From the NCBI GenBank assembly GCA_017447875.1, contig JAFSMP010000040.1, positions 1 through 64,000 of the forward strand: 64,000 nucleotides of DNA, in the 5' to 3' direction. Every line of letters starts with the position of its first letter. Positions within the stretch are counted from its first letter, which is position 1. Origin of the DNA: Paludibacteraceae bacterium. Its GTDB lineage: Bacteria; Bacteroidota; Bacteroidia; Bacteroidales; Paludibacteraceae. The notes under the pieces are model-generated. The model was not told the DNA's origin, did no database searches, and saw only the letters and a program-made list of their open reading frames with translations. Positions 1 through 18,905 of this stretch are shown in pieces. The position numbers and the translations under genes are program-made.

Positions 1-669
1 GTCATCGGTGGTGTCATCGGTGCCGTTGGTGGCGGTGGCGGTGATGGTAGCGGTGCCGGCGGCTACGGCGGTCACTACGCCGTTAGCTACAGTTGCTACG
101 GTTGGGTCGCTCGACGTCCATGTCACGGTCTTGTCCGTTGCGTCGTCGGGGGCGACGGTAGCGGTCAGCGTCAGCGTCTCGCCGCCAACGGTCATTGCGG
201 CTTCGGTCTGCGAGAGGGTGATGCCCGTGACGTTGACGGTGGTGGGATTCTCATAGCCATACACCTCAATCTTTTTTATACCCTTACTTCGATAAATGCC
301 ACCATCAATGGGTGTGCCATTTATTCTCGGTGTCTTATCCTCTTCTGTGGTTTCTACAACAAATGGAGCTTCGATATCAGTAGCAGTACGATTGGCATCG
401 TCATAGAATATACATTTTGTGATGGTATATCCTTCGGCAGCATTGACGGTGGCCGACCAACCGTATCCCCACCAGCCCCAGTTAGCTAAGTATGCTGAGG
501 ATCCATATGCAGTATAACTGAACGAAACGGTTGCAACGCCCTCTGTGCTGTAGTTTGCCTGTTCTTTGCCAGTTGCCGTAATTGTGGTCAGCAGCGTTTC
601 CGTCTGTGCCACTGCGCCCGTCGCTGCCATCAGCAGGGCGAGAATGGAAAATAGTTTAATTTTCTTCAT
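1..669 (-). CDS. Secreted protein with bacterial Ig-like (BIG2) domain, partial (3' end beyond window)
   Basis: The frame is open from an ATG at 669 down to base 1 (223 codons, no stop), so the C-terminus lies outside the window. The start MKKIKLFSILALLMAATGAVAQ is a clear signal peptide cleaved after AVAQ. Residues ~25-140 are a Ser/Thr/Gly-rich domain that I do not recognise. From ~145 on there is a BIG2-type Ig-like fold with the usual signatures GITLSQTEAAMTVGGE, TVTWTSSDPTVATV and GVVTAVAAGTATITATA. Such domains are common in Bacteroidales surface or extracellular proteins. The gene lies directly after the structured element at ~755-1085, which forms its 5' flank on the minus strand. Whether it ends in a T9SS tail cannot be seen. 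Confidence 0.85.
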   Translation of the reverse strand, partial: MKKIKLFSILALLMAATGAVAQTETLLTTITATGKEQANYSTEGVATVSFSYTAYGSSAYLANWGWWGYGWSATVNAAEGYTITKCIFYDDANRTATDIEAPFVVETTEEDKTPRINGTPIDGGIYRSKGIKKIEVYGYENPTTVNVTGITLSQTEAAMTVGGETLTLTATVAPDDATDKTVTWTSSDPTVATVANGVVTAVAAGTATITATATNGTDDTTDD

Positions 670-754
670 TGTTTTGTTGTTTTAAATTGTGAATTATTAG
701 GTTATTATATATAAACCCTAGAAATTTTTAGACATATGGACATAGACATAAAAA

Positions 755-1085
755 AGCGTGCGCTTTCGTTCGCTTCATTTGATTTTCTGAGGTCCTAGAC
801 TTACCTTTATTCTTCAAATAAATGCACAGAAAACTCACGCTGATACGTGAGCGTGCATAAACCGTACTTGAAGAATAAATGATTTCTGTTAACTTGTCTA
901 GGGTTTCAGAAAATCAAGTTGGGCTTATTACGCTATTATTTATGTATGTTGTTTGTCTGTTGTTTTATGCCATAGGCGGTGGTTGGTTGATTTGATATTT
1001 TTAATCGGTCATATATGGCCGATAGATTATTGCTCCGGGTTTAACGTCGCGGAGAGGGGACAGTTATTTATTCGTTTCCTATCTC
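755..1085 (-). ncRNA. Structured repeat element, copy 1 (candidate ncRNA or mobile element)
   Basis: This stretch has no convincing gene apart from the last codons of the DUF2442 gene at its right end. It holds a rod-like hairpin of five stems: 779-790 with 906-917 (12 bp), 794-800 with 896-902, 807-817 with 868-878 (11 bp), 822-827 with 853-858, and an apical 834-839 with 846-851. Next to it is a linear block (933-980) that matches 7623-7670 at 45 of 48 positions, then a small hairpin CTCCG/CGGAG around a GACGTTAAA loop (minus strand). Copy 2 has the same architecture with different stem sequences. The minus strand is favoured because the apical stem of copy 2 then has a G.U wobble instead of an A/C clash. 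Confidence 0.7.
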
Positions 1086-1298
1086 ATAGAGATATTCCGG
1101 AGCAAAATCTGCGCCATTCGCCCATTCTATTGTAACAGGCGTAAGCGCATATTGAATAAACTGCTCTTTGTCACGCAAAGCACCAAAAACCTCACCTGTT
1201 AAATGTGGCTCCAGATCTACTACCTTATGCGCACCGTCACTAAACGTAAGCGCCAAGCGATAATCGCCTTGATAATCTACATCTTTTACTCGTAACAT
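1068..1298 (-). CDS. DUF2442 domain protein (partner of DUF4160)
   Basis: A 76-residue protein starting MLRVKDVDYQGDYRLALTF, with the DUF2442 pattern of a short beta-rich protein (LTFSDGAHKVVDLEPHL, then FGALRDKEQF, then IEWANGADFAPEYLYE near the end). DUF2442 genes usually lie beside DUF4160 genes, as here: the DUF4160 stop is 7 bp upstream. The pair is often annotated as a toxin-antitoxin-like module, but I know of no proof of toxicity for this pair. The stop codon lies at the edge of the structured repeat element, whose similarity to copy 2 runs into the last codons. Confidence 0.85.
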   Translation of the reverse strand: MLRVKDVDYQGDYRLALTFSDGAHKVVDLEPHLTGEVFGALRDKEQFIQYALTPVTIEWANGADFAPEYLYEIGNE

Positions 1299-1305
1299 AA
1301 CATAT

Positions 1306-1563
1306 TTATTTAAGAGGTTCTATTCTTCCTATCTGTTTCCCTTCTTGGGCATTTTCCCAAAGGGTTAAAATCTCCTGCTCATGCAAATCTATCCATTGGT
1401 TTACTTTGGCAATAACTTTAGCCGGAGCCTGTCCGTCTACCACTCTATCCAACACACTGATACTGCACTTATAATCTCCATAGGTAAAATGAACATGGGG
1501 CGGATTATGATCTTTCCAATACAAACAAATGATTATTCCATAAAAGCGACTAATCTCCGGCAT
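1306..1563 (-). CDS. DUF4160 domain protein, toxin-antitoxin-like
   Basis: An 85-residue protein when started at the ATG at 1563, which gives the family's normal N-terminus MPEISRFYGIIICLYW; a longer frame begins at 1617 but would add residues atypical of the family. The DUF4160 core is visible: HNPPHVHFTYGDYKCSISV, then GQAPAKVIAKVNQWIDLH and EILTLWENAQ. It is followed after 7 bp by the DUF2442 gene, so the two form an operon read from the promoter at 1615-1645. Two dyads of the form TGTGT-N-ACACA lie just upstream of that promoter and could be operators. Function as a toxin is an inference from gene pairing only. Confidence 0.85.
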   Translation of the reverse strand: MPEISRFYGIIICLYWKDHNPPHVHFTYGDYKCSISVLDRVVDGQAPAKVIAKVNQWIDLHEQEILTLWENAQEGKQIGRIEPLK

Positions 1564-1614
1564 AATTATAAGGTGTTTAATTGTTATTTTTGTTACCTTT
1601 GCAACTTTCGGCTG

Positions 1615-1645
1615 CAAAGTTACGGATTTTTTCTGACATGTGCAA
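1615..1645 (-). promoter_or_regulatory. Bacteroidota-type promoter of DUF4160-DUF2442
   Basis: On the minus strand TTG (1645-1643), 20 nt, then TAACTTTG (1622-1615), the -33/-7 pattern of the Bacteroidota primary sigma factor. Confidence 0.85.
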
Positions 1646-1658
1646 ATAAAAGTGTGAG

Positions 1659-1722
1659 AAATGTGTGTTTTTACACATTTTTGGCACCATAAATTGTGTA
1701 TATTTACACATTTTCGGCACTT
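1659..1722. repeat. Tandem pair of ~32-bp units, each a TGTGT/ACACA dyad (possible operators)
   Basis: Two degenerate copies in tandem, ~1659-1690 and ~1691-1722. Each contains an inverted repeat (AATGTGT..ACACATT in the first) and ends in GGCAC. They lie 15-80 bp upstream of the -33 box of the DUF4160 promoter, a plausible place for an autoregulatory operator. No regulator can be assigned from the sequence. Confidence 0.5.
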
Positions 1723-1780
1723 TAATGGTATCCCATCTTAAAATATGGTATGTTTGGCAATGGGAGAAAGACATTACTCT

Positions 1781-3637
1781 TTACTCCTGAAGTTGAAAAA
1801 GTTGTGCTTTAATCTGATACTCTTTCGCCATTTGTACATTCTTCTCAACCCCTTTCCCTTCGATTAACCACTGTGCCACAATATTTGCACAATAACTATC
1901 TTCGGCTGCATCTGTACAACGCTTGTAATAGTAAAAAGCGATAGTGTCGTTATATGGTATTATAATTTGAAGTGTATTATACCAATCTATGTTTCGCTCG
2001 TCCAATATATCAGGTGCGGGATTACCGGAATACATTTCTGCTAAAAGAAATAAAACACCGTTAACACCATTATCTGCGGCCATGTTGGCGTATAGTAAAG
2101 CTTTTTGTATATCTGCTTCACCTGTGGCCTTTTCGCACAGTGATACACTTTGTTCAGAATAATCAACAATTTCTTTCTTTTGTGCATACACGCAAGCAAG
2201 CACACCAACTAATAATGCAATGATAATTAATACAACAATCATAATTTTTCTTTTGTTGCAACTGTACTTGTTTTCTTTGGGGCGTAAAGAGTGTAAATTA
2301 GTAAGCGAGGTAATCCAAAGCACACCAAGTAGTATAATCGTTGTTGCGATATTCTTTAATGCGACACCTCCCATATTCCAACCATTTGCGACAGCGGTAA
2401 TAGCGGCAACCGGAACTAAAATAATTAAAATAGTTGCTACAATGAAATAAATAATCGCACTAACCTTCGGGTTGTCTTTATGCGATAAGAGACGGCGGAT
2501 TTTCAGTCGCTGGAAAAATTGAGTCCCACTGCTGGCACGTCTCAGTAAATCCTCCATAGAAGTATTTTGTTCTTCATGGAGAGCCTTAACAGCAGCACTT
2601 CTTTCTTGCATATATTTTTCTCGCAATTCTACAAACTCAGGATTGTCTTTAACAATCAAGTCCATTAGTTTTAAAGGGATAGGTTTATTTTCTCTCCTTA
2701 GTTCTACTGGATATAAATTGTCGAAATAGAAAGGACGTGGACGAATAATAGCGTTATTTATTATAGCACGCCAACTCTTATCTTCAGGTATCCAATCCAT
2801 ACGCATAGGAACTAACTGCGTACATTCCCATATATATAATTCATTTGCGCCCTTAAGACGATAGTTGACCACACAAAGAGCTTCATTATCGGCAGTGTAG
2901 CCGTAAAAATTGAAACTATTATTATCAATAATACGTATACTATCTTCGACGGCATAGTATCCCAAATCTTCCACTAATAGTCTGAGCTTGGTCTTTGAGT
3001 AAACACTTATTCGCCAAACTTTTCTATCATATGTTTTTATAGTATGTTTTTGCAGCCATAAGCAATACTCACATTCAGAAATATTGATAATTTTCTGTTC
3101 TGGAGCATTAGACATATAGTCCATAGAAGATAATTCTCCTACCGTACTATAATAATCCTTTGTACCCGTTGAGAACTCTTTCTCGCGAATAAGCCACTGA
3201 CAACCTTCGTCATCCCACAATGCTTTTTGTCCATCTTTTATAGTTTCGGAATAAAACTGATGATGAACCAGATCAAACAAGAATACATGCCTATGATGGT
3301 TTGTACTAAAGAACAATATATCAGAATGCCGAGACCAATCCAACACATCGTCTTTGTCTATTTCTCCATCTGTTTCTAACGGATTGTAGAATGCTTGGTT
3401 ATACTTGTTTTTTATGCAAAAGGTATATTTTGCACAATCTTCATGTTCTCTATACAATTCAATAAAGAAATTCCCAGTTGGGGAAATCTTTGTGCCAATC
3501 AATATATTCTGTTCTTTTGTCAATATTGTAAGTTTCAAAAATATGTTACTAGCCTTGGTTCCGGATGAAATTACCTTATACGCCCCGTACCATTGCACTT
3601 CCAACACTTGCCAGTGTGTCCAGGACAAACGGTACAT
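1781..3637 (-). CDS. Membrane protein with C-terminal Sel1-like region, unknown function
   Basis: As drawn, 618 residues. The ATG at 3637 lies inside the upstream gene in another frame (67-bp overlap) and the first ~25 residues look unnatural, so a TTG at 3538 or 3523 may be the true start. Residues ~30-330 resemble a beta-propeller-like sensor region but I cannot name a family. Two strong membrane segments follow at ~405-450 (VSAIIYFIVATILIILVPVA, then IATTIILLGVLWI) and a third at ~475-495 (IMIVVLIIIALLVGVLA). The C-terminus (~510-618) has Sel1/TPR-like helices (ALLYANMAADNGVNGVLFLL; IEGKGVEKNVQMAKEYQIKA). It is last in the run that starts at 7376. A decayed copy of its N-terminal coding sequence sits at ~4280-4315. 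Confidence 0.7.
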   Translation of the reverse strand: MYRLSWTHWQVLEVQWYGAYKVISSGTKASNIFLKLTILTKEQNILIGTKISPTGNFFIELYREHEDCAKYTFCIKNKYNQAFYNPLETDGEIDKDDVLDWSRHSDILFFSTNHHRHVFLFDLVHHQFYSETIKDGQKALWDDEGCQWLIREKEFSTGTKDYYSTVGELSSMDYMSNAPEQKIINISECEYCLWLQKHTIKTYDRKVWRISVYSKTKLRLLVEDLGYYAVEDSIRIIDNNSFNFYGYTADNEALCVVNYRLKGANELYIWECTQLVPMRMDWIPEDKSWRAIINNAIIRPRPFYFDNLYPVELRRENKPIPLKLMDLIVKDNPEFVELREKYMQERSAAVKALHEEQNTSMEDLLRRASSGTQFFQRLKIRRLLSHKDNPKVSAIIYFIVATILIILVPVAAITAVANGWNMGGVALKNIATTIILLGVLWITSLTNLHSLRPKENKYSCNKRKIMIVVLIIIALLVGVLACVYAQKKEIVDYSEQSVSLCEKATGEADIQKALLYANMAADNGVNGVLFLLAEMYSGNPAPDILDERNIDWYNTLQIIIPYNDTIAFYYYKRCTDAAEDSYCANIVAQWLIEGKGVEKNVQMAKEYQIKAQLFQLQE

Positions 3638-4260
3638 TTTACTATGCCATCGCCACCTGTAGCATATGGATTATTATACCAACCTTTGCCATTGCATTTA
3701 GAACAATTTCCTGTGCCATGACATTCTGTACACTGTCGATCACTTGTTTGTGACGGAGAAGGATAGACAGGAACATTGCTTGGTACATATGGTTGCATAG
3801 TTTGCATCATATATGACGACTCTATCTTCTCTATACACCCATTTTTGTCATGTTTCTGCTGACAACGGCCAGTTCCTTTACACCAACTGCACGGCATTGA
3901 AAAATATCCCATAGATAAACCTCCTGCACCTAAACAATACGGGCACTTGCCTCCTAATGAAAGGCATGCACAAGGCTCTTGGTGAAAGTGCATCCAATTT
4001 CCGTCTTCGTTATATAACCATGTTTCGCTTTTCCCATCTTTCCTATTGCATCCATAAAGGAAAAGGAAATTTTTGCTGTTGTATTTATATATCTCTGTCT
4101 TATCTATACCATGCACAATGATAGCATAGCTGCCATCATCATAATGATTTATAGTGTCGCCATTGACAACTTCTACTTTTAAGAGTTTGTCACCTGCTGC
4201 ACTGCAATATAAAACTTGCAATAGCGATAAAATAAGTAAAAAGATAAATGTTCTATGCAT
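3571..4260 (-). CDS. Secreted protein with DnaJ-type CxxCxGxG zinc-ribbon repeats
   Basis: 229 residues with signal peptide MHRTFIFLLILSLLQVLYCSAA. Residues ~25-90 are a small beta domain of no known family. From ~95 on there are repeated zinc-binding motifs like the cysteine-rich domain of DnaJ: CPYCLGAGG, CSWCKGTGRC, CTECHGTGNCSKCNGKGW, CTVC...CWKCNGTGR. There is no J domain, so this is not a DnaJ chaperone; the motif here is a zinc-ribbon in an exported protein. A Gln/Pro/Ser linker separates the two cysteine blocks (~155-175). It sits between the WG-repeat gene and the membrane/Sel1-like gene on the same strand. Its 80-bp upstream gap contains a decayed fragment of the downstream gene. 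Confidence 0.75.
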   Translation of the reverse strand: MHRTFIFLLILSLLQVLYCSAAGDKLLKVEVVNGDTINHYDDGSYAIIVHGIDKTEIYKYNSKNFLFLYGCNRKDGKSETWLYNEDGNWMHFHQEPCACLSLGGKCPYCLGAGGLSMGYFSMPCSWCKGTGRCQQKHDKNGCIEKIESSYMMQTMQPYVPSNVPVYPSPSQTSDRQCTECHGTGNCSKCNGKGWYNNPYATGGDGIVKCTVCPGHTGKCWKCNGTGRIR

Positions 4261-4339
4261 AACAATAATATTTTAATATTCGGGAAACCTTTGTGCAAAT
4301 TAATATATTCTGTTTTCCAGCTAATACAACGCTTTATTA
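4261..4339 (-). pseudogene. Remnant of a duplicated N-terminal coding fragment
   Basis: The gap holds ~33 bases (4282-4314) that match 3481-3513 at 30 positions. In the corresponding frame it reads QNILICTKVS, against QNILIGTKIS in the gene ending at 1781. This is best explained as what is left of a tandem duplication or recombination in the gene cluster. Confidence 0.6.
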
Positions 4340-5308
4340 TTAAAGACGGAAGAACCAAAATATATCTGTCCCTTGAGAAGTCATTGTAGTATAATTATAG
4401 TCGCCCACTGGATAATTATAGTAAGACCTATGCGAATTCACATTGAGGTATTGTTTATTTTTCCATCTTGGTTCAATGATATAATAGCCTCTACTATCGC
4501 GATAAACACTAAACGTCTGCCTGTGAGTTGATGTAGAACCATAAGAACTACTCAAACCAAAAGCTTGAAAATTTCCGACCAAACTTCCACCCTCATTATT
4601 AGCTGACATATTGTTAACCATATTATCACCTTTCGTTGAAGAAGCTGTAGGGGTATTTAAACCATTAGCAAAGCCTTGTAATACGGCATATGCAATCTCA
4701 GCATCGCTTACTGTTTGAGTTTGATACTCTTCATGACTAATATATACCTGTTTACCTGAAGCTCTGACTTCAGCGCACGTCAATAGACCTGCTCCTAAAT
4801 ATGTACCATCTCTAGAATATGTATCGCAATTTTCTCTTTTACAACACCAAACTACTCCATCTTTACATACTGAAATATGCGTAAATCTCCGACTTGTAGA
4901 GAATATCTCTTTCCCTCTCTTATCATAAAGAGCATACGGTACACCATCTTTAAATGATCCTACTATAAGATAACCATTATCAAAACTAATAAAATATTTA
5001 TCGGAACTGCTATACTTGGGAGTAATAATTTCTTTTCCCATAATATCACATAGACCGATCTTTCCATCCTTCTCGACAGTAAAATAACCATCTGGATCAT
5101 ATGAAACATAAGTATATTCACGAGAAAGTGGAATAATAGTATTATGATTAACATCTTTTGCTCCAATAATACTATATCCCTTTGAAGGTTCATATTGGTC
5201 TATCTCGTACCATTTATAACCATCTTTTTCTTTTCTTTCATACTCTCGTTCATTGGCAGATATTGTCAATGCAGCAAAGAAAGTTAATAAACAAAGTAAT
5301 TTTCTCAT
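4340..5308 (-). CDS. Secreted WG-repeat protein
   Basis: 322 residues; signal peptide MRKLLCLLTFFAALTISANE. Residues ~65-165 contain WG-type repeats as in KWG proteins: YFTVEKDGKIGLCDIMGKEI followed by ITPKY, then YLIVGSFKDGVPYALYDKRG with KEIFS. The rest (~190-322) is Ser/Gly/Tyr-rich and probably disordered, ending in YNYTTMTSQGTDIFWFFRL. WG repeats are short beta elements found in many exported Bacteroidota proteins; their role is not known. The ATG overlaps the stop of the upstream gene by 4 bp (ATGA), so the two are likely translationally coupled. Confidence 0.75.
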   Translation of the reverse strand: MRKLLCLLTFFAALTISANEREYERKEKDGYKWYEIDQYEPSKGYSIIGAKDVNHNTIIPLSREYTYVSYDPDGYFTVEKDGKIGLCDIMGKEIITPKYSSSDKYFISFDNGYLIVGSFKDGVPYALYDKRGKEIFSTSRRFTHISVCKDGVVWCCKRENCDTYSRDGTYLGAGLLTCAEVRASGKQVYISHEEYQTQTVSDAEIAYAVLQGFANGLNTPTASSTKGDNMVNNMSANNEGGSLVGNFQAFGLSSSYGSTSTHRQTFSVYRDSRGYYIIEPRWKNKQYLNVNSHRSYYNYPVGDYNYTTMTSQGTDIFWFFRL

Positions 5309-5808
5309 AAATGTAAAATGTTATTAAATGTTGATAATTTTTTATTAGTTCTGAACGGTGAAACATCGACAATATAACATACCTTACTTGTATTGTCGAA
5401 AGTTAAAACTTCATCAATATGCATAAATTTCATGAATTCAGCAGCAATGGATAGCAACTCCTGTGTGTCTATACCAGAAAGAGAAATGCATAAGCTATTT
5501 TCATTATATACATATTCTCCCGTAGGAGCAACAACCTCTTTGAATAAATATCCTAAATCCCAATGAATATTAGGGAAAGAATCCTGTTGTTTTCTGAGCC
5601 AATCCTCAATAGAGAGCAGATAAATATGTTTGCTTCGTGCTTTATTAAGAATTAACACTCCACCTTCATGTTCAGGCGGAGAAATAGATAAGTTTAAGTG
5701 ATCTATTCTATCGTACCTTTTGCGCCTATCCGGATTGAAACGACGCATCGCTTTAAGTGCATCTCTTATAAAAAAGAAGATAAATAATATTCCTTTGGGA
5801 GATCTCAT
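5305..5808 (-). CDS. Hypothetical protein, N-terminal hydrophobic segment
   Basis: 167 residues if started at MRSPKGILFIFFFIRDALKA (5808), 13 bp after the preceding stop; an upstream ATG at 5862 would overlap that gene by 41 bp and adds an unlikely N-terminus. The first 20 residues may anchor it in the membrane. The soluble part has no motif I recognise; it ends FRTNKKLSTFNNILHL. Context (operon with secreted and lipoproteins, ATGA overlap with the WG-repeat gene) suggests an envelope role, but no function can be given. Confidence 0.6.
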   Translation of the reverse strand: MRSPKGILFIFFFIRDALKAMRRFNPDRRKRYDRIDHLNLSISPPEHEGGVLILNKARSKHIYLLSIEDWLRKQQDSFPNIHWDLGYLFKEVVAPTGEYVYNENSLCISLSGIDTQELLSIAAEFMKFMHIDEVLTFDNTSKVCYIVDVSPFRTNKKLSTFNNILHL

Positions 5809-5821
5809 ACTTGTTCCAAAT

Positions 5822-6385
5822 TTAATTACCAGACATTGATTCTGTTTGATACAGTTCCTCATTTATTGTATCCCAATAAATTGATTGAACCTCATGATGT
5901 GGTTCTGCATACAGAAGTTGCACTATAATGCCACCACCAACTGTGATATATTTCGACATAAAAGTTGCTTTCCCTTCTCTTAAAGCCTCAAAAGGCTTAT
6001 TATCTTCAGAATAAGGAGATTCGAATCTCTCTACAACTTCCGAAGGGCTTCCATAAGTTTTTTCTATCTTTGTTCTAATTGTTCCATAATCCATATAAAG
6101 AGAATGCCATAAAGCAGCGGAAGTAGGATATGTTATGACTACTTTGTAAACCGTTTCAGAAACAGGAGTAGCCATAACTTCTGCTACAACGGTTAAACCA
6201 TGATGCCGTCCAAACATCAATACCGAATGTTCATCGGTACTAAATACTTTGAAGTCTTTTAACTCCATCTGTTTAACGAACTCTGCTAACGTACCATTGA
6301 TTTTTATCCCTCTGAAATTCATATGGCTTTGGGCGCAAACTAATGTTGAGATGGTAAGCGCTATAGCAACAAAAATCTTCTTCAT
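5822..6385 (-). CDS. Secreted hypothetical protein
   Basis: 187 residues from the ATG at 6385, which gives a clean signal peptide MKKIFVAIALTISTLVCAQ; the open frame runs further up to 6439 but into the upstream coding sequence. The mature protein has MNFRGIKINGTLAEFVKQME at its start and a repeated alpha/beta pattern (FKVFSTDEHSVLMFG, WHSLYMDYGTIRTKIEKTYG). Small exported proteins with this RGIxINGTL start occur in many Bacteroides relatives, without known function. It starts 4 bp after the lipoprotein stop. Confidence 0.7.
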   Translation of the reverse strand: MKKIFVAIALTISTLVCAQSHMNFRGIKINGTLAEFVKQMELKDFKVFSTDEHSVLMFGRHHGLTVVAEVMATPVSETVYKVVITYPTSAALWHSLYMDYGTIRTKIEKTYGSPSEVVERFESPYSEDNKPFEALREGKATFMSKYITVGGGIIVQLLYAEPHHEVQSIYWDTINEELYQTESMSGN

Positions 6386-6389
6386 AATT

Positions 6390-7376
6390 TTATTCATATA
6401 TAGTAAATTCATAATAGAAGTAGTCCGTACATACGCCATACATTCCAGTCCTGGAGTTATATGTTGTGTGTGACATTTGGTCTAATTTAATTTTGTTGTA
6501 GCCTTTATGAGCGGCATATTCATCGTACGCCCATCTGACTTTATATGCCCCCGTAGAAGTGTTCTTGTAAGCGTCAATATGAGACGATGTCTGCTTAGTT
6601 GAAGGTGTTGTAGTACCGCCTGAAGGGCAATACCAGTAAGGAATATAACCAGAAGCACTAACTTGCACCCATTCTTCTGTTGGTTGCTCAGGTTCTCCAC
6701 CACCGGACTCACCACCACCATCCGTTTTTAGCTCTACTGAAATAAGGTAAATTTCTACCTCATCTTTAAATAGTGAAACAACACCCGTTACGTTGTATTT
6801 CTTTGATGCAGAGCAATTAGCGGAGATAAGAAAATAGTTATGAACTAATATCCCATTCGTCAATGTGCCGGATGTCTTTTGTAAGGAGTTAAAATTCACA
6901 TCTGCCGTAAATTGTGCATTCTCGAATTTGACATATTTGCTTAAATCATTCATTGAGAGAGAACTTACAACTTCAGGAGAAACAGGAGCGTTTCCTTTGT
7001 ATATTCCTCCAAAGGTGGATTCTTCCACTTTCATTTCAGGAAGTCCGTAATAAGAATAGTATCTACCGCAAATACCTTTTATTTGGTCTCCATTCTTATA
7101 TTCTTTGTTTATTGAACCATACACCAACAGAGCGCCTGAATTATCTTTAACATAAAGGTATAAACCATTTTGGTAAGTAACGGTAACAACATTGTCTATC
7201 TGAACGATTTCTTCATTATTTTGCAATGATAGAAACTCTCTTATGCTATTTACTTTAGCATAAGAGTATGGATTTTCATCAGACGCATCATTATTAGACG
7301 GCGCATTTTTTTCATTGCAGGAAGAAAACCAACATACGACCACTGCGGTCATAATAAATAAGAGTGTCTTTTTCAT
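6390..7376 (-). CDS. Lipoprotein with OB-fold-like domain
   Basis: 328 residues with a lipoprotein signal (MKKTLLFIMTAVVVCWFSSC, lipobox FSSC). Residues ~40-215 look like the OB-fold domains common in Bacteroidota lipoproteins (VNSIREFLSLQNNEEIVQID, LYLYVKDNSGALLVYGS, KNGDQIKGICGRYYSYYGLP), as in the DUF5689/DUF6359-type families. A Gly/Glu/Pro linker (~218-235) leads to a ~95-residue aromatic-rich C-terminal domain of unknown type. It is the first gene of the run 7376 to 1781 and follows structured element copy 2. Confidence 0.7.
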   Translation of the reverse strand: MKKTLLFIMTAVVVCWFSSCNEKNAPSNNDASDENPYSYAKVNSIREFLSLQNNEEIVQIDNVVTVTYQNGLYLYVKDNSGALLVYGSINKEYKNGDQIKGICGRYYSYYGLPEMKVEESTFGGIYKGNAPVSPEVVSSLSMNDLSKYVKFENAQFTADVNFNSLQKTSGTLTNGILVHNYFLISANCSASKKYNVTGVVSLFKDEVEIYLISVELKTDGGGESGGGEPEQPTEEWVQVSASGYIPYWYCPSGGTTTPSTKQTSSHIDAYKNTSTGAYKVRWAYDEYAAHKGYNKIKLDQMSHTTYNSRTGMYGVCTDYFYYEFTIYE

Positions 7377-7439
7377 TTGTTGTAAATTTTTATTCCCCTC
7401 TTACACCTTCGGGGCTTGGTTTGAAGTAGTATGTATATA

Positions 7440-7790
7440 TACGAAAAACGTGAGGCTTGTTAGCTTCAATCTGGAGTTTCGAGGAATTCTGGACTACCTT
7501 ATCCTACCAAATATCTACCGAACAAGGCTCACGCTGACACATGAGCACTCAAAAGCCTTGTTCTTGGTAGGAAATTTCAAAAGTGTCCAGTTTTCGAAAC
7601 TCCAAGCTCTTAGCTGAATGCTTTATTATTTATGTATGTAGTTTGTCTGTTGTTTTATACCATAGGCGGTAATTTGTTTTTGTTTAGTTTTGTTTTGATC
7701 GGTCAAGATTGCGGGACAGAGCCTACATTGCTCCGGTTTTAACGTCTCGGAGAGGGACGTGAATTTATTTATCCTTTCAATATACGCTTG
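7440..7790 (-). ncRNA. Structured repeat element, copy 2 (candidate ncRNA or mobile element)
   Basis: Same architecture and orientation as copy 1. Stems: 7472-7482 with 7594-7604 (11 bp), 7489-7494 with 7585-7590, 7502-7510 with 7564-7572 (9 bp), 7520-7529 with 7554-7563 (10 bp), apical 7528-7533 with 7540-7545. The stem sequences do not resemble those of copy 1, yet each pairs; the tip CTCACGCTGA is the same. The linear block 7623-7670 matches copy 1 at 45 of 48 positions, and the TTGCTCCGG..TTTAACGTC hairpin (7728-7752) is also kept. A further shared stretch (~7445-7470, CGTG..GCTTnnTTnGCTTCA) lies on the other side of the rod. No gene fits between 7377 and 7776. Confidence 0.7.
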
Positions 7791-8031
7791 CTTTCAACGT
7801 TCTAAGACCTGCATTATTTCTAATTGTGGCGAATTCGCCATAATTAAAATCGGGGTTGTTGACTTTCTCCCAGATGCCAATATACTCCAATGTGTTTCGG
7901 TTACGCAGCCAATCGGTAACAAAGAAATCTCCGTCCTTTGCCTTTAACATGTCCGTCAAGCAGATATAATCTTCTGCATGAACTTTGATGATTGTTATCT
8001 CTGTTCCTTGTACGTTCAGCGTATTGGCCAT
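7777..8031 (-). pseudogene. KilA-N domain gene, C-terminally truncated
   Basis: 84 residues from the ATG at 8031 (MANTLNVQGTEITIIKVHAE). The KilA-N DNA-binding domain is recognisable: DYICLTDMLKAKDGDFFVTD, WLRNRNTLEYIGIWEKVNNP, then GEFATIRNNAG. Family members continue for another ~150-200 residues after this point; here the protein ends with LRTLKASVY. The stop lies inside the region shared with structured element copy 1, so the element may have replaced the 3' part of the gene. The promoter at 8074-8104 is intact. KilA-N proteins occur in phages and in chromosomal accessory islands; DNA binding may persist. Confidence 0.7.
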
Positions 8032-8073: not shown

Positions 8074-8104
8074 CAAAGTTACACAAAAAAAATGACATAC
8101 GCAA
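8074..8104 (-). promoter_or_regulatory. Bacteroidota-type promoter of the KilA-N gene, overlapping a terminator-like hairpin
   Basis: TTG (8104-8102), 20 nt, TAACTTTG (8081-8074) on the minus strand. The -33 region lies within a dyad (CATAC/GTATG, ~8095-8116) followed by a T tract on the minus strand, which could also terminate transcription arriving from further upstream on the same strand. Confidence 0.8.
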
Positions 8105-18000: not shown

Positions 18001-18905
18001 TTATTGGCGGGATGGTAGGTGAGGATCGCTTTGCGGAGGTCTTGAACGTCCACGTGGGTATATATCTCGGTGGTAGCAAGGTCTTCGTGTCCGAGCAGTT
18101 GTTGGATGACTCGCAGGTCCGCTCCGTTCTGCAGCAAATGGGTAGCAAAGGAGTGGCGGAGCGTGTGGGGCGAGACGGTCTTGGTGATACCGGCTTCGGT
18201 GCACAGACGACGAATGATCGTGAAGACCATCGCGCGGGTGAGCGGACGACCGTAACGGTTGACGAAAGCGATATCGCGGGACTCGGGTTTGAGCGGCCAG
18301 GTGCTACGTTCCTGTAACCAATAACCGAACCACTCTTCCGCCACAGGCGAGAGGGGCACCAGACGTTGCTTGGAACCCTTGCCTTCGATGAGCATGTAAT
18401 GCTCGTTAAGGTAGATCTTACTCAGTTGCAGGTTCACCAGTTCGCTCACCCGCAGTCCGCTGCCATAGAGCATCTCGAGCATGGCTCGGTTGCGGTGTCC
18501 TTCGTTGGACGACAGGTCGATCGCCGCCATGAGTCGGTTGACCTCATCCAAGGAGAGGACAGTCGGCAGATGTTTGGACTTACGCGGTCCTTCCAGCAGT
18601 TCGGAAGGGTCCTGGTCGATATAGTTTTTGTACAGCAGAAAGCGGAACCAGGAATGGATTCCGGCGAGTACGCGTGCCTGGGTAGCTTCGGAGCGGAGAT
18701 TCTTGAACTGCTCGAAGATGAACGCTTCCAGTTGCTCGAAGTCCATATGCACGAAGTCGATACCGTTAGCCTCCGCATAGGTGCGGAGTTTGTCAAGGTC
18801 CATCTCATAGGCTTCGACGGTGTTAGGTGAGAAACCACGTTCCAGACGTAACCAACTATGGTACTCACGAAGCAATGCCGTATCGTGGGTCACTTGTTTA
18901 GCCAT
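17997..18905 (-). CDS. xerD: Tyrosine recombinase XerC/XerD family
   Basis: 302 residues from MAKQVTHDTA (18905); an ATG at 18929 would only lengthen the overlap with the preceding gene. The N-terminal SAM-like core-binding domain (EYHSWLRLERGFSPNTVEAY) is followed by the catalytic domain with the full set R-K-H-R-H-Y: GSGLRVSELVNL (Arg), EGKGSKQRLVPL (Lys), HTLRHSFATHLL (His, Arg), LGHEDLATTEIYTHV (His, Tyr). It is of the size and type that resolve chromosome dimers at dif; XerC versus XerD cannot be told with certainty. Its setting among envelope genes rather than beside a mobile element fits a housekeeping role. Confidence 0.9.
   Translation of the reverse strand: MAKQVTHDTALLREYHSWLRLERGFSPNTVEAYEMDLDKLRTYAEANGIDFVHMDFEQLEAFIFEQFKNLRSEATQARVLAGIHSWFRFLLYKNYIDQDPSELLEGPRKSKHLPTVLSLDEVNRLMAAIDLSSNEGHRNRAMLEMLYGSGLRVSELVNLQLSKIYLNEHYMLIEGKGSKQRLVPLSPVAEEWFGYWLQERSTWPLKPESRDIAFVNRYGRPLTRAMVFTIIRRLCTEAGITKTVSPHTLRHSFATHLLQNGADLRVIQQLLGHEDLATTEIYTHVDVQDLRKAILTYHPANK

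Follow-up and report, generated by a model that had tools for sequence, protein, structure and literature searches.

Two elements of like orientation, copies of one another, lie near one end of a contig from a Paludibacteraceae bacterium (order Bacteroidales; assembly GCA_017447875.1, contig JAFSMP010000040.1), and the question that they raise is what their long, rod-shaped fold is for. The stretch analysed, positions 1 to 64,000 of the forward strand and called the window below, is one end of contig 6 of a genome that is 76.7% complete and consists of 70 contigs; the genus of this genome is referred to as the home genus, and L, C and G numbers denote the loci, contigs and genomes that were compared. 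Based on the results given here, the rod almost certainly belongs to a family of leader RNAs that matches nothing in Rfam 15, and, judging from sequence, it probably acts as a switch of gene expression. We suggest, with a probability of roughly 0.5, that it would be a cis-acting transcription attenuator of the class Bacteroidia. The rods and the conserved blocks beside them are located as follows (R3 is a covariance model described below).

752–934, minus strand: rod RNA, copy 1, with helices X/X'2, S2, S3 and tip and a T-run at its end; 118.1 bits, E 7.4e-25 with R3.
7444–7622, minus strand: rod RNA, copy 2; 116.9 bits, E 1.3e-24 with R3.
933–980, minus strand: linear conserved block A3 of copy 1, 45/48 identical to that of copy 2.
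7623–7670, minus strand: linear conserved block A3 of copy 2, 45/48 identical to that of copy 1.

Both copies fold into the rod (z scores of -6.85 and -4.15, with 0/100 shuffled sequences as stable), and the alignment of the two contains stems that are unlike in sequence and paired in both, together with a tip that is largely kept. The block of 48 nucleotides (nt) and the CTCCG/CGGAG hairpin with its GACGTTAAA loop (minus strand, about 1054–1033 and 7752–7731) are likewise present in both, as a preliminary description of this DNA had stated. From the outside inwards, the rod is composed of X/X'2 (11 pairs), S2 (7), S3 (10), the upper stem (6), which is the weakest with 78–82% of cells paired, and the tip (6). 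The two strands of S2 each lie in the loop of a small hairpin, GAAA..TTTC round the 5' strand and AGGY..RCCT round the 3' strand, so that S2 may be a kissing-loop helix; in these small hairpins, 96.8% of cells pair and 10 are double-changed against 1.4±1.1. The closing helix P1 (AGCGT/ACGCT) is nearly invariant, and its covariation is not above that of shuffles.

Relatives were sought as the preliminary description had proposed, with covariance models in Bacteroidales genomes. A BLAST search with copy 1 as the query (rod part at about 145–331 and block part at about 14–150 of the query) gave matches in 125 of the 151 genomes sampled from the genus, the window genome included. Model R1, built from 33 distinct rods, found rods in 60/150 genomes of the family (23/33 genera) and in 18/198 genomes of the order (17/151 genera). 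Model R2 drew on 90 matches (87 distinct; six loci from the home genus) and extended this to 88/247 genomes of the order (69/173 genera) and 25/296 genomes of the phylum (13/140 genera); the large model runs used stricter filters, by which weak matches were lost. Several rods occur per genome, with up to 14 found in one. Model R3 was derived from 103 matches in 100 loci, none of them from the home genus (two rows are weak opposite-strand palindrome matches), and it recovered both window copies with the scores listed above. It also matched 16 of 18 loci picked for divergent rods, mostly beside the CTCCG module; L047 and L081 gave no match. Together, these searches yielded relatives across the class, in gut and environmental Bacteroidota.

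The stems of these relatives covary strongly. In alignment A7 (99 distinct rows, 40 pairs), 95.4% of cells are paired and 995 cells are double-changed against 284.5±15.7 in shuffles, so that covariation extends well beyond the two window copies, the point on which the preliminary description had staked its reading. Double changes occur in 37 of the 40 pairs, and the covariation score is 0.639 against 0.182 for shuffles and at most 0.106 when the partner is slid by 1–3 columns; alignment A6 agrees. Because the alignments were fitted to the structure, they are biased towards it. The slid control and the matches of R3 outside its own alignment argue, however, against this fitting as the whole cause of the covariation, and since R3 contains no sequence of the home genus and still scores the window copies at 118 and 117 bits, the pairing of the stems is to be ascribed to covariation, not to chance. 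It was also considered whether the variable stems could be accounted for by orthogonality of the copies within a genome; this found no support, as the 5' and 3' arms of different copies within one genome pair slightly better, and not worse, than arms taken from other genomes (S3, 0.597 vs 0.557).

The strand of the functional molecule can be read from the kind of mismatch that the helices tolerate. In the order-wide alignment A4, stems 1–3 and the tip hold 108 G-U cells versus 8 A-C cells, and all 41 pairs together hold 122 and 22; the home-genus alignment A2 has 35 and 10. Because G-U is in excess over A-C, the functional molecule is, by this count, RNA of the minus strand of the window or, as a less simple option, that strand as single-stranded DNA; the preliminary description, which had favoured RNA from the minus strand, is borne out by the asymmetry. 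A DNA cruciform was rejected, because it would lack the bias that is seen.

The surroundings of the rods point to the same strand and to a cis role. For 92 distinct rods from alignments A4 and A5 (at least five from the home genus), an open reading frame (ORF) starts on the same strand within 450 nt downstream in 86 cases, 77 of which lie at 20–170 nt; in a second set, mostly from the home genus, an ORF starts within 700 nt in 37/40 loci, 33 of them at 20–170 nt. A Bacteroidetes -7 box of the form TANNTTTG is found within 150 nt upstream in the sense direction in 57 of 86 testable loci, compared with 13 in antisense and 12 in control stretches, and its median distance to the rod is 85 nt. Among ORFs of at least 100 amino acids (aa), 49/61 downstream of rods have a signal-peptide-like start against 45/134 other ORFs of the same loci (p 9e-10), an enrichment valid only against this matched control, because the crude test also passes 152 of 330 ORFs from the window and 20 long home-genus loci. 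The downstream genes are diverse and part of them are not exported; the loci of the phylum search include genes that we take to be TonB-receptor-like and ECF-sigma-like. In the window, the genes downstream are the following.

1–669, minus strand: gene downstream of rod 1, signal-peptide-like, with a Big_2 domain; it runs off the contig end, and the gap to the rod is 82 nt.
6390–7376, minus strand: gene downstream of rod 2, lipoprotein-like, with no Pfam match; it heads a run of minus-strand ORFs, and the gap is 67 nt.

With a -7 box upstream and an ORF downstream, often with a signal peptide, the rod is by its position part of an mRNA leader, between a promoter-like box and a start codon. The idea of a structured regulatory RNA from the minus strand has thus gained relatives across the class, covariation, strand asymmetry and a leader position. 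The proposed placement of each copy, with an accessory gene on its 5' side and a secreted-protein gene on its 3' side, applies in the window; outside the home genus, the accessory gene is dispensable and the promoter box often stands directly upstream.

An independent small RNA, bounded by a promoter and a terminator of its own and with the downstream gene served by readthrough or by another promoter, would also agree with a promoter box about 85 nt upstream, a strong fold and a terminator-like end. The close same-strand ORF in 86/92 cases and the enrichment of exported proteins point instead to a cis role, and we regard this alternative as quite improbable.

The case for attenuation comes from the 3' end, which could be parsed in 90 of the 98 rods outside the home genus. 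A T-run follows the 3' segment, End (...CCACGC), which is complementary to T3, the tip's 3' strand. The T3/End pairing scores 10.6 against 6.0 for shuffled ends and equals or exceeds the tip's own pairing, T5/T3, in 70/90 parsed rods; 19 cells are double-changed against 7.0±2.2 in shuffles. A T-run of at least 4 follows 94/98 of the rods outside the home genus, compared with 16% of 487 control windows; by group, it is present in 80/80 rods of the order and 14/18 others (17 of other families of the class, and L258 of the order). A further competition concerns helix X, which has a second, shorter partner, X'1: the score with its own partner is 5.9 against 5.05 with other alleles (0/5000 permutations; 52 of 72 rows were parsed and 20 dropped). 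The X/X'1 pairing is strong in the home genus and weak elsewhere.

Upstream of the rod, part of the leaders carry a very short ORF. In the window, it lies inside a conserved GCCTATGG block.

965–973, minus strand: minimal ORF of copy 1, ATG-GCA-TAA.
7655–7663, minus strand: minimal ORF of copy 2, ATG-GTA-TAA.

The motif GCYTATG occurs within 110 nt upstream of the rod in 44 of the 92 leaders. Read in frame from its ATG, a stop is first met at codon three in 28 of these, at codon four in 13, at codon six in 2 and further on in 1. Frame +2 has a stop among its first six codons in only 20/44 (frame +1 is biased by ATGA). Insertions are of whole codons (ATG-AAA-TAA, ATG-AAA-AAA-TAA), and the stop codons TAA, TAG and TGA are exchanged for one another, with all three occurring. 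In the home genus, 19 of 20 copies of CCGCCTATGG are minimal ORFs. The twentieth (L008 on C62, 3242–4219) begins a protein of 325 aa that has a DUF1016_N domain, and since that gene begins at the ATG of the motif, the CCGCCTATGG block looks like a real translation start.

Based on these features, we propose the following course of events. When the rod forms, T3 would be locked in the tip and polymerase would read through. T3 would instead pair with End, giving rise to an intrinsic terminator, when the 5' half is held in a local fold, by a factor or by a ribosome that occupies the minimal ORF. More elaborately, the nested competitions (leader hairpin, X/X'1/X'2 and T5/T3/End) together with the ORF of 2–3 codons, in the Bacteroidales form, would read the state of the ribosome or of a dedicated factor and so gate exported and accessory genes; we consider this version possible and on the whole rather unlikely. 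If it is true, the hypervariable, fully compensated stems would constitute a general-purpose switch on horizontally moving genes.

Several results, besides the permissiveness of the signal-peptide test, weigh against this interpretation. Although the complementarity is strong, covariation of T3/End is modest: double changes affect no more of its pairs than in shuffles (200/500), and a partner moved by -1 column likewise yields 19 double-changed cells, with only 17% paired. In 46/80 copies, an A-run 5' of the rod offers the T-run another partner. Forcing T3/End costs on average about 15 kcal/mol in stability relative to the rod (84 of 90 rows scored, pseudoknots left out), so that an attenuator switch needs a kinetic or a protein trigger; the terminator-like T3/End stem spans a long loop, and this alternative would require co-transcriptional timing or a factor. 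The motif of the minimal ORF is absent from 48/92 leaders and from 21/21 tested loci of the phylum search; it therefore looks like a feature of only part of the Bacteroidales copies. The support for the small hairpins round S2 is modest, with a +1 slide also giving 10 double-changed cells, though only 65% paired. Finally, the 3' end stem of model R1 taken alone has as many A-C as G-U cells (14 each).

A leader that acts without termination, by stabilising the mRNA, controlling translation or recruiting a protein or RNA polymerase (processive antitermination, as in leaders of the put, EAR and LoaP types), is a less probable alternative. The conserved loop motifs (GAAA/TTTC and AGGY/RCCT) and tip, the promoter-proximal position and the very high stability of the rod would all be expected of it; the T-run in 94/98 rods and the extra 3' copy of the tip strand would be left unexplained.

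The copies are further characterised by what accompanies them upstream. The two boxes below were read from sequence, and their promoter type is our presumption.

1030–1058, minus strand: A1 module, CTCCG/CGGAG hairpin, behind the DUF2442 gene and separable from the rod.
7727–7756, minus strand: A1 module, CTCCG/CGGAG hairpin, behind the KilA-N gene.
1000–1024, minus strand: A2 module of copy 1, GACCGAT hairpin.
1068–1298, minus strand: DUF2442 gene upstream of rod 1.
1306–1572, minus strand: DUF4160 gene upstream of rod 1.
7777–8031, minus strand: KilA-N domain gene upstream of rod 2.
1615–1622, minus strand: TAACTTTG -7-like box upstream of the DUF4160 gene.
8074–8081, minus strand: TAACTTTG -7-like box upstream of the KilA-N gene.

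The A1 module contains GTTAAA. Two tandem 33-nt repeats, 82% alike and with ACACATTTT..GGCAC, lie at 1659–1724, just upstream of the promoter box of DUF4160. A pattern scan of genome contigs for the CTCCG hairpin returned 20 stretches; the titles of 18 name Bacteroidales, Bacteroidia or Paludibacteraceae. The rod occurs without the CTCCG block (for example, C9:50166–50345) and the block without the rod (C62:52648–52756). Since the parts are found together or singly, the element of about 330 bp, although present in both copies, is a composite of separable modules and not the single unit first supposed. Short hairpin modules stand close behind the stop codons of accessory genes (window 1030–1058 and 7727–7756; L008 from 3155; L072 and L073), also where there is no rod; they take the form of CGTC..GACG overlapping CTCCG..CGGAG, or of two alternatives. 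A tRNA-Ala (GGC) gene was noted about 125–135 nt upstream of a leader module (L008, 2948–3022) or a rod (L031, 1301–1375) in different genomes.

Short accessory genes (DUF4160-DUF2442, KilA-N and others) precede many of the leaders in the home genus, and the units of gene plus leader vary between genomes. The downstream genes of L010 and L041 are near-identical in the printed alignment, all three variable helices of their rods differ, and the conserved rod parts are nearly the same; L013 and L014 have near-identical genes and differ in two variable helices. Recombination between rods, which would also swap the upstream sequence, is the simplest account of such differences before like genes. 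Near ychF, G137 (L073) has DUF4160-like and DUF2442-like ORFs (named by eye), a leader and a secreted gene, and G018 (L099) lacks this unit, though its ychF protein is 100% identical. Among the matches listed, only L059 and L073 have modules near ychF; the other loci spanned at most 1.6 kb.

Such patterns would also suit a recombination site for gene cassettes, that is, folded DNA of the attC kind: in the home genus, the upstream sequence of L010 and L041 differs before near-identical downstream genes, genomes differ in having or lacking a whole unit near ychF, the modules are mosaic, and the genome has tyrosine-recombinase-like ORFs below the integron cut-off. One such ORF, of about 316 aa and below the integron integrase cut-off, lies at about 18048–18842 on the minus strand of the window. 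However, the G-U/A-C asymmetry indicates RNA of one strand, the cassette gene is dispensable outside the home genus, and mosaics can arise by ordinary homologous recombination in the conserved parts. The search for an integron integrase gave 0 matches above the family cut-off and 18 weaker ones in this genome, at 76.7% completeness. We therefore hold a cassette site, one of the options of the preliminary description, to be very improbable. Another of its options, a miniature inverted-repeat transposable element (MITE) or other small transposable element, has the several copies per genome (up to 14) in its favour. In 60-nt stretches around the estimated edges of both copies, the longest exact inverted repeats are 5 and 6 nt and the longest direct repeats 6 and 7 nt, compared with shuffled means of 5.6–5.9, and the position between promoter box and ORF and the compensatory evolution of the stems across the class also speak against it; a MITE is hardly credible. 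The guide RNA of an IscB/TnpB-type nuclease, suggested by size and rod shape only, can be practically dismissed, as Rfam contains the HEARO family and gave zero matches in the window; an IscB-domain search found no match in the genome but was equally silent in 14 control genomes and is hence uninformative.

As for mobile elements, the window rod has no match among plasmids or phages. Carriage by viral contigs was rejected, as the sole pattern match falls within long ORFs of a GC-rich stretch. Two further rods had relatives that matched 4 and 1 plasmid records, and all three of the records examined hold rods according to R3. These are records of Bacteroides ovatus and Parabacteroides distasonis (E 1.6e-12 and 7e-12), where the rods precede a gene of the dihydrofolate reductase family and are overlapped by no listed gene (in gene tables without RNA genes), and a plasmid of Rhizosphaericola mali with another rod (E 5.5e-21). 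In L258, a rod at 1501–1660 lies about 1.4 kb from a match to the rteR small RNA (35–117), upstream of a dihydrofolate-reductase-like ORF; the arrangement in the B. ovatus and P. distasonis records (L276 and L277) is similar.

Few regulatory RNAs of the Bacteroidota are understood, and this phylum dominates gut and rumen communities. With rods in 88 of the 247 Bacteroidales genomes sampled, such a leader RNA would mean a further level of gene control, one open to bench experiments, for which the relatives in B. ovatus and P. distasonis records offer a starting point. In addition, the rods are a natural data set of compensated helices for work on RNA structure.

In comparison with what is already catalogued, the Rfam search that the preliminary description had called for found no known family on the rod: Rfam 15 gave zero gathering-level matches in the window, and no family matched the rod at threshold in the loci scanned. 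Riboswitch families were among those not matched to rod loci in these scans, and the downstream genes look diverse. The one overlap with a rod was a sub-threshold match to L20_leader in L168, at 23.7 bits where 58.7 are required (E 0.9). No description of the rod RNA was found in the literature at the level of titles and abstract openings. Two papers (PMC9723704, PMC8040213) list 64 structured 5' regions and 3161 candidate RNAs, and the rod RNA may be listed unnamed among those large sets.

The motifs DUF805b (RF02914) and DUF805 (RF03081) were detected 3' of rods in L005 (1823–1857), L054 (5825–5859), L167 (1696–1732 and 1789–1854) and L199 (1448–1483). The DUF805b match of L167 is below the gathering score, and that of L199 is exactly at it, in the gap between rod and gene, and was the sole DUF805b match among the 20 loci of that scan. 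Side by side, rod and motif are two unexplained RNA motifs in one leader. DUF805 and DUF805b are likewise cis-regulatory motifs of Rfam and differ from the rod in their length of 35–68 nt and in sequence, the rod having no match to them.

Among other known systems, integron attC sites share with the rod a folded palindrome, a structure kept above sequence and, in the home genus, the neighbourhood of accessory genes; the rod differs in its RNA strand bias, its leader position and the lack of an integrase above cut-off. Antitermination leaders of the put, EAR and LoaP types are promoter-proximal structured leaders, as is the rod. The tetQ leader of Bacteroides has mutually exclusive hairpins and a three-residue leader peptide. 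Like the rod, it is a 5' leader of the Bacteroidales, and it is subject to attenuation (Wang et al. 2005, as cited in PMC5418344), while for the rod attenuation is our proposal. The rod has another fold and size, is far more widespread and is attached to genes for exported proteins and accessory genes, and its T-run suggests transcriptional rather than translational control, unlike the tetQ leader.

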